Below, piece after piece: positions 23,927 to 29,124 of a stretch of 39,142 nucleotides of DNA (position 1 is its first letter; each line of letters begins with the position of its first letter). The DNA lies in contig JADHWO010000017.1 in assembly GCA_016783445.1 (NCBI GenBank), positions 1 to 39,142 on the forward strand, given 5' to 3'. The notes under the pieces are model-generated. The model was given only the letters and a program-made list of their open reading frames with translations, searched no databases and was not told where the DNA came from. This DNA is from Candidatus Aminicenantota bacterium. GTDB taxonomy: Bacteria; Acidobacteriota; Aminicenantia; Aminicenantales; Aminicenantaceae. The translations under genes and the position numbers were made by a program.

Positions 23927-24949
23927 CTAAAACTCAAACAATCCGAATCTTTTAAAAACTCTCAGAACAGCAAAAGTCACCCACAGATCATCTTCCAGAA
24001 CAGATTTTTTACTTCCTGACTCCCAATAACCCTGCTTAGTCTGTTTATTCAATAACCAGTTTAAACCTTTTTGTGCATCCTTACTATTCTCTGCGCTAAC
24101 TCCAATTTGGGAAAGAGAATCAAGACTGCTTAAGATATCAGTGGCCCAAAAAGGATATGTTATTTCTTCCCAGAAGGAAGGATGCCATCTGTCATCATAT
24201 TTATCTTCACTAAAAAACCGACTCTGCAACAACTCCCCTGCTTTCCACGCTTCTTTACTCTTTCTCCAGGTTGGAGACACCGCCAGGGCACGAAGAACCA
24301 TGCCTGTAACAAGGTGGGAAAAAGGACGAGATTTATCAGGTTTGACAGGGTTAAGTGTTAACTGGGCTTCAAAATTATAGCGACTTTTGAGCTGTTCTTG
24401 ATCTATAGTCCTGTATGGGATAACCCAGCCTCCATCATCCTGCCTGTTCTTGATAATCCACCTAAAACCTTTCTGAGTCCTTTCATCTTTATCCTGGCCA
24501 AGAAGGCACAAAATCTCAAGAGTTAATGCATGATAAGTGGGGGCATATTCATTGAGATAAGCCCCTCGAAAATCACCTGTTTTTGACTGTGTTGAGAACA
24601 GGAATTCAATCGCTTTTTTAATCCCTTCATCCTCGCAGCTACATCCAAAGTTATATAATTTGAATACATTTTTTAATGTCTCAACTATGTAATAAGTTTT
24701 CTCCCAGCGAGGGTGGCCTTCATACTTCTTTTTTCTCCACCCTCCGTTGGGCCCCTGGCTATTTAAAATCCTGATGCGGGCGGCAAATTTTTGCAGATTC
24801 TTGAATTCCCTCTCTACCGGAACTTCAAGAATATCCTTTTTCAACCAGTAAAGGATTGGGAGGTTCCCTCTTGCCAGGAGAAACTCTATGGCTTTATTGG
24901 GATTTATCTTCATCGGAAGTTCTAGCGAAGCAGTTTTATTTAATTTCAT
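23927..24949 (-). CDS. Alpha/alpha-toroid repeat protein (prenyltransferase/terpene-cyclase-like fold)
   Basis: 340 residues with repeated helix pairs marked by NGGW, TGDFRG, DDGGW and QGYWESG turns, as in the squalene cyclase/prenyltransferase toroid. No signal peptide, no DxDD cyclase motif, and no clear zinc set, so enzymatic activity is doubtful. A CSC pair lies near residue 113. Its ATG follows the cupin stop by one base, so the two are translated together and may act on the same small molecule or protein. Function unknown. Confidence 0.6.
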   Translation of the reverse strand: MKLNKTASLELPMKINPNKAIEFLLARGNLPILYWLKKDILEVPVEREFKNLQKFAARIRILNSQGPNGGWRKKKYEGHPRWEKTYYIVETLKNVFKLYNFGCSCEDEGIKKAIEFLFSTQSKTGDFRGAYLNEYAPTYHALTLEILCLLGQDKDERTQKGFRWIIKNRQDDGGWVIPYRTIDQEQLKSRYNFEAQLTLNPVKPDKSRPFSHLVTGMVLRALAVSPTWRKSKEAWKAGELLQSRFFSEDKYDDRWHPSFWEEITYPFWATDILSSLDSLSQIGVSAENSKDAQKGLNWLLNKQTKQGYWESGSKKSVLEDDLWVTFAVLRVFKRFGLFEF

Positions 24950-24950
24950 C

Positions 24951-25295
24951 TTATTCAGGATTAAGGATTATACATAAAAATTCAAATGGCTCATTAAAAG
25001 GATTTTTAAACTGATGCTTTTCGTTTCCTTTTACAAAAAGACTCTGTCCCGCTGAAACAACAATTTCCTCTCCTTCCTCATTTACCACTATCCCTTTTCC
25101 ATTTTCAATTTTGACAACATGCTCATGGTCATGGCTGTGAAAAGGAGTATGTCCTTCAGGAAGAACCTTAAAATGTCTCATTATAATATTATGGGAACCA
25201 TCATCTGGCCCTATAAGGATTCTTCTTTTAACGTTTTTAACTTCTTCTTCATTAACAGAATCTTCCGGCACATCGATATTATTCTTAATAATCAT
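24951..25295 (-). CDS. Small cupin-domain protein
   Basis: Single cupin barrel, 114 residues. The start at 25295 is chosen because AGGAG sits 7 bases before it, while an ATG 24 bases further upstream has none. Metal ligands are probably the histidines of HTPFHSHDHEHV together with the Glu of the first cupin motif and H in GNEKHQFKNP of the second. Cupin-2 proteins of this size are often metal enzymes or sensors. Coupled to the toroid protein. The 270 bases upstream separate it from the divergent aminotransferase gene. Confidence 0.85.
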   Translation of the reverse strand: MIIKNNIDVPEDSVNEEEVKNVKRRILIGPDDGSHNIIMRHFKVLPEGHTPFHSHDHEHVVKIENGKGIVVNEEGEEIVVSAGQSLFVKGNEKHQFKNPFNEPFEFLCIILNPE

Positions 25296-25478
25296 TTTTT
25301 TCTCCTGAAATTTTAACATTCATTTAAAGCATCTATCAAGAAGGCTAACCGAGTGCTTTCTTTAAAAAAAGCATGTATTATATTAAATCTGCTCATTCAT
25401 AACTTCCAAAAAAACAAAGATAAACATAGATTTTATTCCAAGTGGAAAAGCCCTGTCAATTTTTTGTTAAATAATTGT

Positions 25479-25564: not shown

Positions 25565-26731
25565 ATGGATAAACTCATCTTCCTTGATAATGGTGCAACA
25601 TCCTTCCCTAAACCTGAAGAAGTGTATACATTTATGGATAATTTTTACAGGAATTATGGAGTGAATCCTGGCCGCTCGGGATATGACCTTTGTTTGGAAG
25701 CAGGAGAACTGGTAGAAACAACCCGCAAGATGCTGACAGATTTCTTTAACGGAAAAGATCCAAACAGGCTTTGTTTCACTTATAATTCCACTGATGCTTT
25801 AAATCTCATCATTAATGGCATGCTCAAAAAAGGTGATCATGCAATTACCACAACCCTTGAACACAATTCTGTTTTAAGGCCGTTGTATCATCTGTATAAA
25901 TATAACGGCGTTGAAGTCGACTACATCCCTTTTGAAAACAAGGGATTCGTTGATCCAGACAGCTTCACCAAAAAGTTCAAGAAAAACACAAAACTTGTCA
26001 TCATCAATCATGCCTCCAATGTAATCGGCACCATTCAGCCTATCAAGGAAATCGGAAAGTATTGCCGAGAAAGAGGTATTCCTTTTGCTGTAGATGCTGC
26101 TCAGTCAGTTGGGAAGGTTCCCGTTGATATTGAAGATCTGAACGTGGATGTGGTTGCTTTCACCGGACATAAATCTCTCCTCGGCCCTACTGGAATTGGA
26201 GGTCTTTATGTCAGAGAAGGAATTGAAATACGGCATACACGTGCAGGTGGCACTGGAGTCCGTTCAGCAGTCCGCACCCACCTCTTTGAGTATCCCTACA
26301 GGCTTGAATACGGAACTTTAAACACCTCAGGTGTTGCAGGACTTAATGCAGGAGTGAAATGGATCGAGAAAAAAGGATTAAAGAACATCCATGAGCACGA
26401 AATGAAACTCACAACAATGCTAAGGGATGGGCTGAAAGATATCGAAGGGGTAATTCTTTACTGCCAGGATGACCTGACAGACCATATAAGCATTCTTCCC
26501 TTTAACATTGATGGATTTGAAGCTCTTAACACAGGCACTATACTGGATGTGGATTACAATATAGCCGCCCGCACAGGCCTTCATTGTGCTCCGCTTGTCC
26601 ACGAACAACTGGGTACAGATAAAATCCATGGAGCTGTCAGGTTCGGTATTGGCCCTTTTAATACGGAAGAACACATAAAGACAGCAATCGAAGCTGTTAA
26701 AGAAATAGCTGCTTCACAGAAAAAAAGATAA
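25565..26731 (+). CDS. Class V aminotransferase, cysteine desulfurase-like
   Basis: PLP enzyme of the NifS/SufS branch, 388 residues. H100 (ring-stacking), D177 (VDAAQS) and the PLP lysine K203 in TGHKSLLG are present. The catalytic cysteine of desulfurases is matched by C341 in RTGLHCAPLVHEQLGT. The N-terminal FLDNGATSFPKP and NPGRSGYD fit the subfamily annotated as cysteine desulfurase family protein (TIGR01977-like). GGAGG precedes ATG. It would take sulfur from cysteine as a persulfide. It converges on the dsrC operon, with stop codons 5 bases apart, so it is not in the same transcript but may supply sulfur to it. Selenocysteine lyase activity is an alternative. Confidence 0.88.
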   Translation: MDKLIFLDNGATSFPKPEEVYTFMDNFYRNYGVNPGRSGYDLCLEAGELVETTRKMLTDFFNGKDPNRLCFTYNSTDALNLIINGMLKKGDHAITTTLEHNSVLRPLYHLYKYNGVEVDYIPFENKGFVDPDSFTKKFKKNTKLVIINHASNVIGTIQPIKEIGKYCRERGIPFAVDAAQSVGKVPVDIEDLNVDVVAFTGHKSLLGPTGIGGLYVREGIEIRHTRAGGTGVRSAVRTHLFEYPYRLEYGTLNTSGVAGLNAGVKWIEKKGLKNIHEHEMKLTTMLRDGLKDIEGVILYCQDDLTDHISILPFNIDGFEALNTGTILDVDYNIAARTGLHCAPLVHEQLGTDKIHGAVRFGIGPFNTEEHIKTAIEAVKEIAASQKKR

Positions 26732-26736
26732 ACTGA

Positions 26737-28089
26737 CTAGCTTTTCTCTCTCTTTTTTATTACTAAAGCATCTGCAACAATTTCACAGACGGTTTTTATC
26801 TTGACTCCAAGCTTATAGTGCTTATTGAGTTCCATGAGCTGATCGATGCAGTTATGACAGGGTGCTGCAACAACTTTGGCGCCAGTATCCCGGATTTGAT
26901 CGGCCTTCACTCTTCCTGCCTCAAGACGTCTCTTGCTAAACCGGGTCATTGCCAGCTGTCCACCTCCACCTCCGCAGCAAAAATTTTTCTCCCTGTTAGG
27001 AGTCATTTCGATGAATTGAGTTAAAGCATGTTTAAGAATAAATCGCTGCTCTTCAACTATTCCTCCCAGACGGACAAGGTTACAGGGATCATGGAGAGTG
27101 ACCGGATCCGGATTAAGAGAAGGGTCAAGTTTAATGCGGCCTTGCAGTATATAATCGGCTACAATTTCTAGGATACTCTTTACTTCGAAGTTATATTTTT
27201 TGCTCAGCCATTCCGGCGCTTCCCACCTGTTGGAGTTAAATCCATGACCACATTCTGCCAGCACCAGAGTTTTACAGCCTAAATTTTTCATAGACTTAAC
27301 AAGCCGGTCTGACATAACTCCGGCAGCTTCATCATCACCACTGTATAGACCATAATTTGTTACATCATAGTTATCACTGGAGAAAGTCCAGCTCTCCCCT
27401 GCTGCATAAAATATTTTGCCGACAGCTGAAATGGATAAAGGGAAAAACATGGGCTCGCGAGGATTGACCGTATAAAAAAGCCTGGCACCTTTTAAATCCA
27501 GAGGAAGCCTTGCATTTTTGTCCCCCACCTCACTCTGAAGCTCCTCTTCCAGCCATTCCACTGTTTCAATCCAGTCTTCCCTGGGTATGCCCATGTTGTT
27601 CCCTTTTTCTAGAGCTGTATTTACAGTTGACTGCAGGCCAGGAGGAACAAGACCAATAGAAGCAAGAGCGCTTCTGGCTGTCCGGATAAGGTATGTAATA
27701 TTCAAACCAACGGAACAGTTCAAAGAACATCTGCCGCACAGCGTACACCTTCCAAAAAGAGAATCCACCCATTCTCTCACTATCGAGTGGTTGAATTTCT
27801 TTGCCCCTATCCATCCAGGGATTTTCTTTCCAGTGAAGCTAAAATATCTTTTGAATATTCCGGCTGCCAGATTCAATTTATATGCAGGCATGGACTGAAT
27901 ATTCCTGTCCGTTAAATAATAATGGCAGGAATCAGCACAAAGGCCACAATGAACACAGGAATTAAAATATGCTGCATATTCAGAATGTATTTTTTCTCTA
28001 AAGACCTGGAGAGCTTTCTTCAAATCTTCTGTTTTCAGTTGATCAATTTTTTCTTCAAAAGGATCTTTTTTTTCGGTTTCGTTGTCCAT
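26737..28089 (-). CDS. DsrK/HdrD-like Fe-S subunit with CCG site
   Basis: Cytoplasmic Fe-S protein of the HdrD/DsrK/TmcB group, 450 residues. Two [4Fe-4S] sets are seen: C45, C48, C51, C55 and C115, C118, C121, C125. The C-terminal cysteine-rich (CCG) domain has C336, the pair C371-C372 followed by Gly, and C411xxC414, the site of the special cluster that handles disulfide-type substrates in HdrB/D and DsrK. An earlier CGHGF (C280) marks the first CCG-type half. It starts 3 bases after the membrane subunit stop. It probably moves electrons between the membrane heme b subunit and DsrC. GlpC or lactate-utilisation proteins share the CCG domain but not this gene context. Confidence 0.85.
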   Translation of the reverse strand: MDNETEKKDPFEEKIDQLKTEDLKKALQVFREKIHSEYAAYFNSCVHCGLCADSCHYYLTDRNIQSMPAYKLNLAAGIFKRYFSFTGKKIPGWIGAKKFNHSIVREWVDSLFGRCTLCGRCSLNCSVGLNITYLIRTARSALASIGLVPPGLQSTVNTALEKGNNMGIPREDWIETVEWLEEELQSEVGDKNARLPLDLKGARLFYTVNPREPMFFPLSISAVGKIFYAAGESWTFSSDNYDVTNYGLYSGDDEAAGVMSDRLVKSMKNLGCKTLVLAECGHGFNSNRWEAPEWLSKKYNFEVKSILEIVADYILQGRIKLDPSLNPDPVTLHDPCNLVRLGGIVEEQRFILKHALTQFIEMTPNREKNFCCGGGGGQLAMTRFSKRRLEAGRVKADQIRDTGAKVVAAPCHNCIDQLMELNKHYKLGVKIKTVCEIVADALVIKKREKS

Positions 28090-28092
28090 GCC

Positions 28093-28722
28093 TTAAACCC
28101 TGTGTGTCTTTGGAGGTAAAATGTCTCTCCTGCCATAAAAAAGCCCAAAAAGAATTCTGGTATAGAAAAAGAAAAAACAATGGCGGATTTTTCCAACGGG
28201 AATATAGAGAAACATTACGATTGATATTAAAAAGAACAAGGGCGCAGTCTGTGCAACAAACGTATGAACAATAGCACAAATCAGGAACAGGTTAACAAGC
28301 ATGTTTGAAAAAAAATCATCCGGACAGCTTATTTTTCTCATTGTTTTAAGTAAAATCCTTTTAAAAAAAAGAACCAGGCCACTAAGAATTCCAAGGGATA
28401 ATAGAAGCCTGAGGAGAAAAACAACAGGTCGAGATAATCCGGAGTGGAAAATTTGGTAAAAAAGATAAATCAGGGCAACAAATATGCCAGTATGGTACAA
28501 AATTCCTCCACAATATGTGGGAAGATGTTTTCTTGCGCTTTCCTTCTCCCAGGGCATCATCCCCCGCCCAAAAGCATAAAGGATTCCCTTTTTTCCATCA
28601 CCCCGGGGTTCTGCATAAAGCAGCTTTTTACCGAATGAAAAAGTTTTTAAAACCAGTATGGTTAGTGAAATAATTGATAATAGAAAAGAGAGAATAACTC
28701 CGCACTTCAGGAAAAAGAGCAT
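28093..28722 (-). CDS. DsrM/NarI-like membrane cytochrome b subunit
   Basis: 209 residues with about five hydrophobic helices (roughly 4-26, 70-92, 100-120, 140-160, 160-177). Histidines H77 (ILYHTGIF), H153 (AIVHTF) and H181 (GKIRHCFF) sit at helix faces suitable for heme b ligation, as in NarI, DsrM and HdrE. GGAGGG lies before the ATG. The position between dsrC and the DsrK-like gene makes it the likely quinone-reactive anchor. It is shorter than DsrM of sulfate reducers and has no partner DsrJ/O/P here. Confidence 0.8.
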   Translation of the reverse strand: MLFFLKCGVILSFLLSIISLTILVLKTFSFGKKLLYAEPRGDGKKGILYAFGRGMMPWEKESARKHLPTYCGGILYHTGIFVALIYLFYQIFHSGLSRPVVFLLRLLLSLGILSGLVLFFKRILLKTMRKISCPDDFFSNMLVNLFLICAIVHTFVAQTAPLFFLISIVMFLYIPVGKIRHCFFFFYTRILFGLFYGRRDILPPKTHRV

Positions 28723-28737
28723 ACAGGTCGTTCCCTC

Positions 28738-29058
28738 CTAAACACAACCATCAGGCTTGGGGAGTCCTGCAACCTTGCAGGCTCCTTTAGCAGGCCCGGA
28801 AGGAAAGAGTTCATAGATATATTTAAGCTGAAAGCCTGTAGTTTTACAGATCTTTCGAACCATGGGAGCTAAATTCTTCTCCAGGTAATAATTTCGAATA
28901 TAATTTATAACTGCCCAATGGTCTTCAGTCAAAGCTTCTACTCCCTCTTCTTCTTTAGCTAAAAGTACGGCAACCTCCTTGGCCCAATCCTCATGATTGA
29001 TCAAAAATCCTTCTTCGTTCGTTTCTATTTTTTTTCCTTTAACTTCAATAAACAACAT
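28738..29058 (-). CDS. dsrC: DsrC sulfur carrier with both redox cysteines
   Basis: 106 residues. The start at 29058 is preferred over 29070 because GAGG lies 7 bases upstream of it. The family core is clear: EEGFLINHEDWAKEVA, LTEDHWAVINYIRNYY and a C-terminal arm GPAKGACKVAGLPKPDGCV. The arm keeps two cysteines spaced by ten residues (C94 and the penultimate C105), the pattern of true DsrC. TusE proteins and other DsrC-like forms with only the last cysteine serve tRNA thiolation or other roles. DsrC carries sulfur as a trisulfide between sulfite reductase and DsrMK in known systems. It leads a three-gene operon with DsrM- and DsrK-like subunits. Confidence 0.92.
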   Translation of the reverse strand: MLFIEVKGKKIETNEEGFLINHEDWAKEVAVLLAKEEEGVEALTEDHWAVINYIRNYYLEKNLAPMVRKICKTTGFQLKYIYELFPSGPAKGACKVAGLPKPDGCV

Positions 29059-29095
29059 AATATTCCTCATTTCTTTTTTTCTTTAAAAACGAGCT

Positions 29096-29124
29096 ATTAT
29101 ATCTTATTTGGGGTCGTGTCTCAA
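29096..29124 (-). promoter_or_regulatory. Sigma-70 promoter of the dsrC operon
   Basis: Minus strand: TTGAGA (29119-29124), 17-base spacer, perfect TATAAT (29096-29101). The start is expected near 29089, about 30 bases before the dsrC ATG at 29058. Confidence 0.65.

Follow-up and report, generated by a model that had tools for sequence, protein, structure and literature searches.

Across the Aminicenantia, a DsrC protein, usually with both redox cysteines (CysA and CysB), and a minimal DsrMK-like pair are encoded in genomes in which we found no siroheme sulfite reductase, and their genes are linked to that of a cysteine desulfurase. In one clade, CysB has been replaced by alanine while DsrMK is intact. 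DsrC and DsrMK are normally tied to sulfite respiration, and a two-cysteine DsrC and DsrMK are taken to indicate dissimilatory sulfur metabolism. A few assemblies have been reported to carry DsrMK but not DsrAB (PMC10504309), and one Aminicenantes metagenome-assembled genome (MAG) was reported with a two-cysteine DsrC and no dsrAB, an observation that was left open (PMC6081815). The literature that we searched contained no earlier account linking DsrC, the desulfurase, and DsrMK, and none of the clade with alanine at CysB (CysB-Ala).

Results

The window is the whole 39,142-nucleotide stretch analyzed here, contig C151 of a Ca. Aminicenantes MAG (2.89 Mb, ~90% complete; G000 in locus names). 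As described in the initial annotation, it carries a three-gene dsrC-dsrM-dsrK set: three adjacent minus-strand open reading frames (ORFs), arranged head to tail and separated by 15 and 3 nt according to ORF coordinates (Table 1). This operon anatomy is solid. The genes dsrJ, dsrO, and dsrP, which were said to be missing from the neighborhood, are indeed absent from the window. As for the promoter described as clean, a sigma-70-like site with an 11/12 match does lie 5' of dsrC, although promoter-like sites across the region are no commoner than expected by chance. The window DsrK matches 39 named loci, mostly from Ca. Aminicenantes and at no more than 84% identity, and the gene order flanking the operon is common to the window and the matching Ca. 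Aminicenantes loci. A binning error is therefore unlikely.

TABLE 1 Features of the dsrC-dsrM-dsrK operon and its surroundings in the window
Feature	Position	Strand	Evidence or remark
Cysteine desulfurase (TIGR01977), convergent to operon	25565..26731	+	453 bits; PLP-Lys GHKS, catalytic-Cys RTGLHCAP
DsrK/HmcF/TmcB/HdrD-like iron-sulfur subunit, 450 aa	26737..28089	-	PF02754, PF13183, NCBIfam, AF2 fold
CCG domain (C336, C371-C372, C411, C414), putative catalytic non-cubane cluster	26836..27102	-	PF02754; invariant in 38 relatives' sequences
Cubane [4Fe-4S] site 2 (C115, C118, C121, C125)	27715..27747	-	CxxCxxCxxxC; invariant in 38 relatives' sequences
Cubane [4Fe-4S] site 1 (C45, C48, C51, C55)	27925..27957	-	CxxCxxCxxxC; invariant in 38 relatives' sequences
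DsrM/HmcE/NarI-like membrane cytochrome b subunit, 209 aa	28093..28722	-	HmcE score, alignments, AF2 fold
dsrC (TusE/DsrC/DsvC family)	28738..29070	-	PF04358, TIGR03342; C-terminus GACKVAGLPKPDGCV
DsrC CysA codon (C109)	28744..28746	-	Translation; invariant
DsrC CysB codon (C98)	28777..28779	-	Translation; Ala in five relatives
Sigma-70-like promoter TTGAGA-17-TATAAT, 5' of dsrC	29096..29124	-	Consensus scan, 11/12

Neither dsrA nor PF01077 had a match in the source genome. The PF01077 model, which takes in the DsrAB, Asr, CysI, and Fsr types among the siroheme sulfite and nitrite reductases, detected 11 of 14 controls; it was found in none of 99 Aminicenantia genomes, 50 of them at least 90% complete, and in none of 14 other carriers (Aminicenantes, Zixibacteria, GN15, and Eisenbacteria). 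The fifteenth carrier, whose DsrMK is divergent, is a dsrAB-bearing Bacillota MAG, and its sulfite reductases were detected, as expected. Among 297 sampled Acidobacteriota genomes, dsrA occurred in 26, with none in the Aminicenantia listed in the sample. The absence of siroheme sulfite reductase is solid, and the initial reading of a stand-alone module without dsrAB is borne out. The accompanying suggestion that its sulfur source is not sulfite holds for sulfite reduced by a siroheme enzyme, since the whole lineage is without one. The survey of relatives that had been proposed as a check recovered DsrC in 81 of the 99 Aminicenantia genomes and a DsrK of type I or II (defined below) in 56. DsrC was present in 55 of these 56 DsrMK genomes vs. 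26 of the 43 without DsrMK (Fisher p = 1e-6, not corrected for kinship); DsrMK implies DsrC.

The window DsrC is the only one in the source genome and belongs to its family by PF04358 (130 bits), TIGR03342 (120 bits, cut-off 53.5), and matches to DsrC structures in the PDB (E 5e-36). Both of the redox cysteines initially annotated are there, as C98 and C109 if numbering begins at the first ATG (C94 and C105 correspond to a start at Met5). All 59 distinct DsrC entries of the DsrAB-free group, some perhaps from the same genome, end in KPDGC(V/I). CysB is retained in 54 of the 59, so it has some use. Previously, CysB was described as occurring only alongside DsrAB, with few exceptions, and as almost always missing from the DsrC-family proteins of organisms without DsrAB (PMC3397948). 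The ending KPTGCV was seen in eight dsrAB-linked Acidobacteriota DsrCs, the DsrC of a dsrAB-bearing Bacillota, and the PDB DsrCs shown. The residue two positions before CysA (KPDGC vs. KPTGC, window 28741-28761) may be diagnostic.

CysB is alanine in five Aminicenantes with large genomes of 5-10 Mb (L037, L038, L039, L042, and L043). Each has a single DsrC and an intact DsrMK, with every cysteine of DsrK retained, and the four included in the DsrK tree group together with support (97*). Between L039 and L043, dN was 0.047, 0.094, and 0.046 and dS 0.275, 0.550, and 0.494 for C, M, and K, giving dN/dS of ~0.17, 0.17, and 0.09. By these values, the operon is under purifying selection. With CysB-Ala DsrC beside an intact DsrMK, a CysA-CysB disulfide or trisulfide cannot be the DsrMK substrate in those genomes. 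These natural variants show that such a bond is not obligatory and that CysB can be dispensed with. The initial annotation had envisaged a disulfide or a persulfide as the species turned over; the CysB-Ala DsrCs speak against an obligatory CysA-CysB disulfide and for the persulfide alternative. Neither these variants nor the desulfurase partner and the reduced set of heme ligands described below had been foreseen there. Separately, one genome (L104, G068:C2:240736-241023) encodes a second, TusE-like DsrC that has no CysB and ends in KKPEGCV, in addition to a two-cysteine DsrC.

The DsrK-like subunit matched PF02754 (43.6 bits) and PF13183 (39.6 bits), and its best NCBIfam scores (HmcF 294, TmcB 290, and DsrK NF045796 251 bits) were all far under the equivalog cut-offs of 750, 735, and 400 bits, respectively. 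The two cubane sites and the CCG site named in its initial description as HdrD/DsrK-like were all found and are conserved (Table 1). Its AlphaFold (AF2) model (pLDDT 87.9) matched the folds of EtfD (E 7.6e-14) and HdrB (E 2e-4 to 6e-4). In the DsrK tree, type I (window-like), type II (~40% identity), hydrogenase-linked type III, and dsrAB-linked proteins form separate clades, and a divergent DsrK from L096 falls outside type II. Type II DsrMK occurs in L088 and L090 in the same context, dsrC-M-K followed by cysteine synthase and cysteine desulfurase. The presence of two ~40%-identical DsrMK types in one gene context in different Aminicenantia suggests displacement or fast divergence.

The membrane subunit scored only 21 bits against HmcE (cut-off 275) and had no Pfam match and no PDB sequence match in single or profile searches. 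Its AlphaFold model (pLDDT 93.8), by contrast, had NarI as all eight of its best PDB fold matches (probability 1.00, E 0.012-0.039). The sequence of the dsrAB-linked DsrM can also be aligned with that of NarI, and the final two DsrM histidines then coincide with the NarI histidine pair; DsrM is described as containing two hemes b (PMC10504309). Of the four heme histidines of DsrMKJOP-type DsrM (L117/L118), the alignment shows just two in the window protein, His77 and His181, so that one of two heme sites is retained. Given this pair and the NarI-like alignment, we infer a single heme b. The aligned type II membrane subunits are also without His66. The NarI-like fold suggests quinone as the partner of this subunit, and a cytochrome bd gene in the source genome is consistent with a quinone pool.

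The most constant partner of DsrMK is the cysteine desulfurase, which lies within 3.5 kb in 41 of 54 loci (some from the same genomes); the association is also conserved in Zixibacteria and GN15. In the window, its stop codon is 5 nt from that of dsrK, and its TIGR01977 score (452.9 bits) exceeds the cut-off of 377, with the catalytic Lys and Cys present. Among homologs, GHKS is found in 56 of 56 and TGLHCAP in 46, with RSGLHCAP and RAGLHCAP variants in most others. The pairing with dsrC also occurs without adjacent DsrMK (L002, L016, L022, L098-L100, L103, and L105). The desulfurase is convergent to the operon in most loci and is therefore mostly not co-transcribed with it; other arrangements are MK-desulfurase-dsrC (L132 and L133) and the co-directional desulfurase-C-M-K (L128) and C-M-K-desulfurase (L062). 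The desulfurase was not near dsrC in any of eight dsrAB-linked Acidobacteriota loci, and among the five CysB-Ala loci it is missing from the surroundings in L038, L039, and L043. The desulfurase-operon link is conserved; conservation of the locus is in part vertical synteny. In L033 (7338-8396), L088 (4623-5687), and L090 (5061-6110), a cysteine synthase-like gene (PALP) sits directly 3' of dsrK, before the desulfurase. Also conserved beside the desulfurase across Aminicenantia are two genes (window 23927-25319), one for a cupin and one for a 340-aa repeat protein resembling squalene-hopene cyclase.

That the operon adjoins the gene of a cysteine-splitting enzyme suggests cysteine as the source of the module's sulfur. 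In vitro, the CysA of Allochromatium vinosum DsrC is persulfurated by IscS with cysteine, or by sulfide, in a reaction that does not require CysB (PMC3397948). Elsewhere in the source genome, TusA adjoins a second cysteine desulfurase gene (G000:C89:11375-13073), another sulfur relay that could serve as an alternative feed for DsrC.

Among the known systems close to the module, DsrMK/DsrMKJOP with DsrC, found in sulfate/sulfite reducers and sulfur oxidisers, shares CysA and CysB, two cubanes and a CCG site in DsrK, and a NarI-like membrane subunit. The module differs from it in having no DsrAB/siroheme sulfite reductase and no J, O, or P at the locus, a membrane subunit of 209 rather than ~330 aa with two instead of four DsrM heme histidines, a DsrC ending in KPDGCV instead of KPTGCV, a separate DsrK clade, and a desulfurase partner. 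Membership in canonical DsrMKJOP was rejected on the DsrK score (251 < 400 bits), the separate clade, and the incomplete heme histidine set. HmcEF/TmcBC of Desulfovibrio provide the nearest NCBIfam models for both subunits, but the scores (294/290/21 bits) are far under the cut-offs, Hmc/Tmc partner genes are absent here, and the pair is dsrC-linked. HdrDE of methanogens also combines a membrane cytochrome b with a CCG protein acting on a disulfide, although its substrate is CoM-S-S-CoB, whereas the bacterial module would use the protein thiol carrier DsrC. The IscS-TusA-TusBCD-TusE relay likewise has a cysteine desulfurase feeding the CysA of a DsrC-family protein; here, however, CysB is usually present and a dedicated membrane DsrMK is added.

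Isp1-Isp2 of the Isp-type [NiFe] hydrogenase, a homologous DsrMK-like pair, is found in the related genomes L097 and L101. It belongs to another clade and to a hydrogenase operon without dsrC, and we rejected an assignment of our pair to these subunits. In L097 (2700-9600, G066:C5), genes for TusA, DsrE2, DsrE, and a GcvH-like (perhaps LbpA-like) protein precede the hydrogenase operon, a possible sulfur-linked hydrogenase in Aminicenantia. Contig C7 of the source genome (L082:1-7732) encodes a molybdopterin protein of PhsA/QrcB-like type, accompanied by ferredoxin and NrfD-like subunits, along with a NarI-CCG fusion resembling EtfD.

Discussion

Our leading explanation, which we hold tentatively and at somewhat less than an even chance, is that the desulfurase loads a persulfide onto DsrC CysA and that the minimal DsrMK links this cysteine-fed system to quinone, probably releasing sulfide. 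Cysteine-derived sulfane sulfur would be placed on CysA by the neighboring desulfurase, either directly or through a sulfurtransferase that it supplies. In most lineages, CysB would then attack the CysA persulfide, so that sulfide departs and CysA and CysB become joined by a disulfide. Where CysB is missing, either DsrK itself would have to reduce the persulfide or an external thiol would do the work of CysB. The CCG cluster of DsrK would restore DsrC with electrons passing from quinol through the single heme b of the DsrM-like subunit and the cubanes. Direct sulfur transfer, quinone as the partner, the reductive direction, and sulfide as product are what we infer here, and by our own estimate, electron transfer from menaquinol to persulfide would be favorable only at low sulfide.

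An unlikely alternative makes DsrC a dithiol/disulfide electron carrier between soluble FlxABCD-HdrABC (NADH/ferredoxin) and the DsrMK of the membrane, with no need of a sulfur source, much as CoM/CoB shuttles between HdrABC and HdrDE in methanogens. The source genome does hold an HdrC-HdrB-KorABC-HdrA-MvhD-FlxBC-like cluster followed by a NAD-binding/DHODB-FeS gene (FlxA-like) on contig C43, and DsrC of Desulfovibrio vulgaris binds FlxABCD-HdrABC (Ferreira et al. 2023, as cited in PMC10504309). However, HdrA of the C43 type and DsrC were not associated in 64 Aminicenantia genomes (32/20 vs. 8/4, p = 1), the HdrA-DsrMK association was weak and phylogenetically confounded, and ten DsrMK genomes, some incomplete, had no HdrA of the C43 type. 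A disulfide between CysA and CysB is impossible in the CysB-Ala DsrCs, whose genomes nonetheless keep DsrMK, and the desulfurase is left unexplained. We therefore rejected this shuttle as a general explanation: the complex is present in the source genome, yet does not co-occur with DsrC. The C43 cluster (L081:7274-15943, L086:1-2001) itself appears to join FlxABCD-HdrABC with a 2-oxoacid:ferredoxin oxidoreductase.

It is distinctly unlikely that DsrC is instead a TusE-like anabolic relay, fed by the desulfurase for tRNA thiolation or cofactor sulfur, with DsrMK only repairing over-oxidised DsrC. The survival of the DsrC-desulfurase pairing without DsrMK fits such a role, as do the resemblance of CysB-Ala DsrCs to TusE and the passing on of IscS sulfur by Escherichia coli TusE (PMC3397948). 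Against it stand the retention of CysB, which contrasts with its reported near-universal absence in organisms without DsrAB (PMC3397948), and the near-complete restriction of DsrMK to genomes with DsrC (55 of 56). Improbable, too, is an oxidative run in which sulfide and DsrC yield DsrC-persulfide and electrons enter the quinone pool, serving sulfane sulfur supply or sulfide detoxification. A. vinosum DsrC takes up sulfur from sulfide at CysA (PMC3397948), the energetics would by our own estimate be favorable in sulfidic sediment, and cytochrome bd is encoded; still, the adjacent desulfurase already produces persulfide, and no sulfide:quinone reductase-like gene was recognized at the loci. Finally, an incomplete sulfite pathway, with a dsrAB or other sulfite reductase overlooked because the MAG is only ~90% complete, is extremely improbable, being refuted at the clade level by the PF01077 results in relatives and further carriers.

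Extending the desulfurase-loading proposal to a widespread membrane "DsrC-persulfide reductase" of anaerobes without sulfite reductase, in which a desulfurase-loaded DsrC and a one-heme DsrMK connect to the quinone pool and one clade uses a single-cysteine DsrC, is rather doubtful at present. If true, this enzyme would represent a cysteine-linked respiratory or redox-balancing release of sulfide outside the Dsr pathway. The CysB-Ala clade amounts to a natural mutant that makes the true substrate of DsrMK, whether trisulfide, disulfide, or persulfide, directly testable. A whole class and members of other phyla thus carry CysB and DsrMK with no sulfite reductase, so DsrC and DsrMK genes alone are not to be taken as evidence of sulfite or sulfate respiration in metagenomes.
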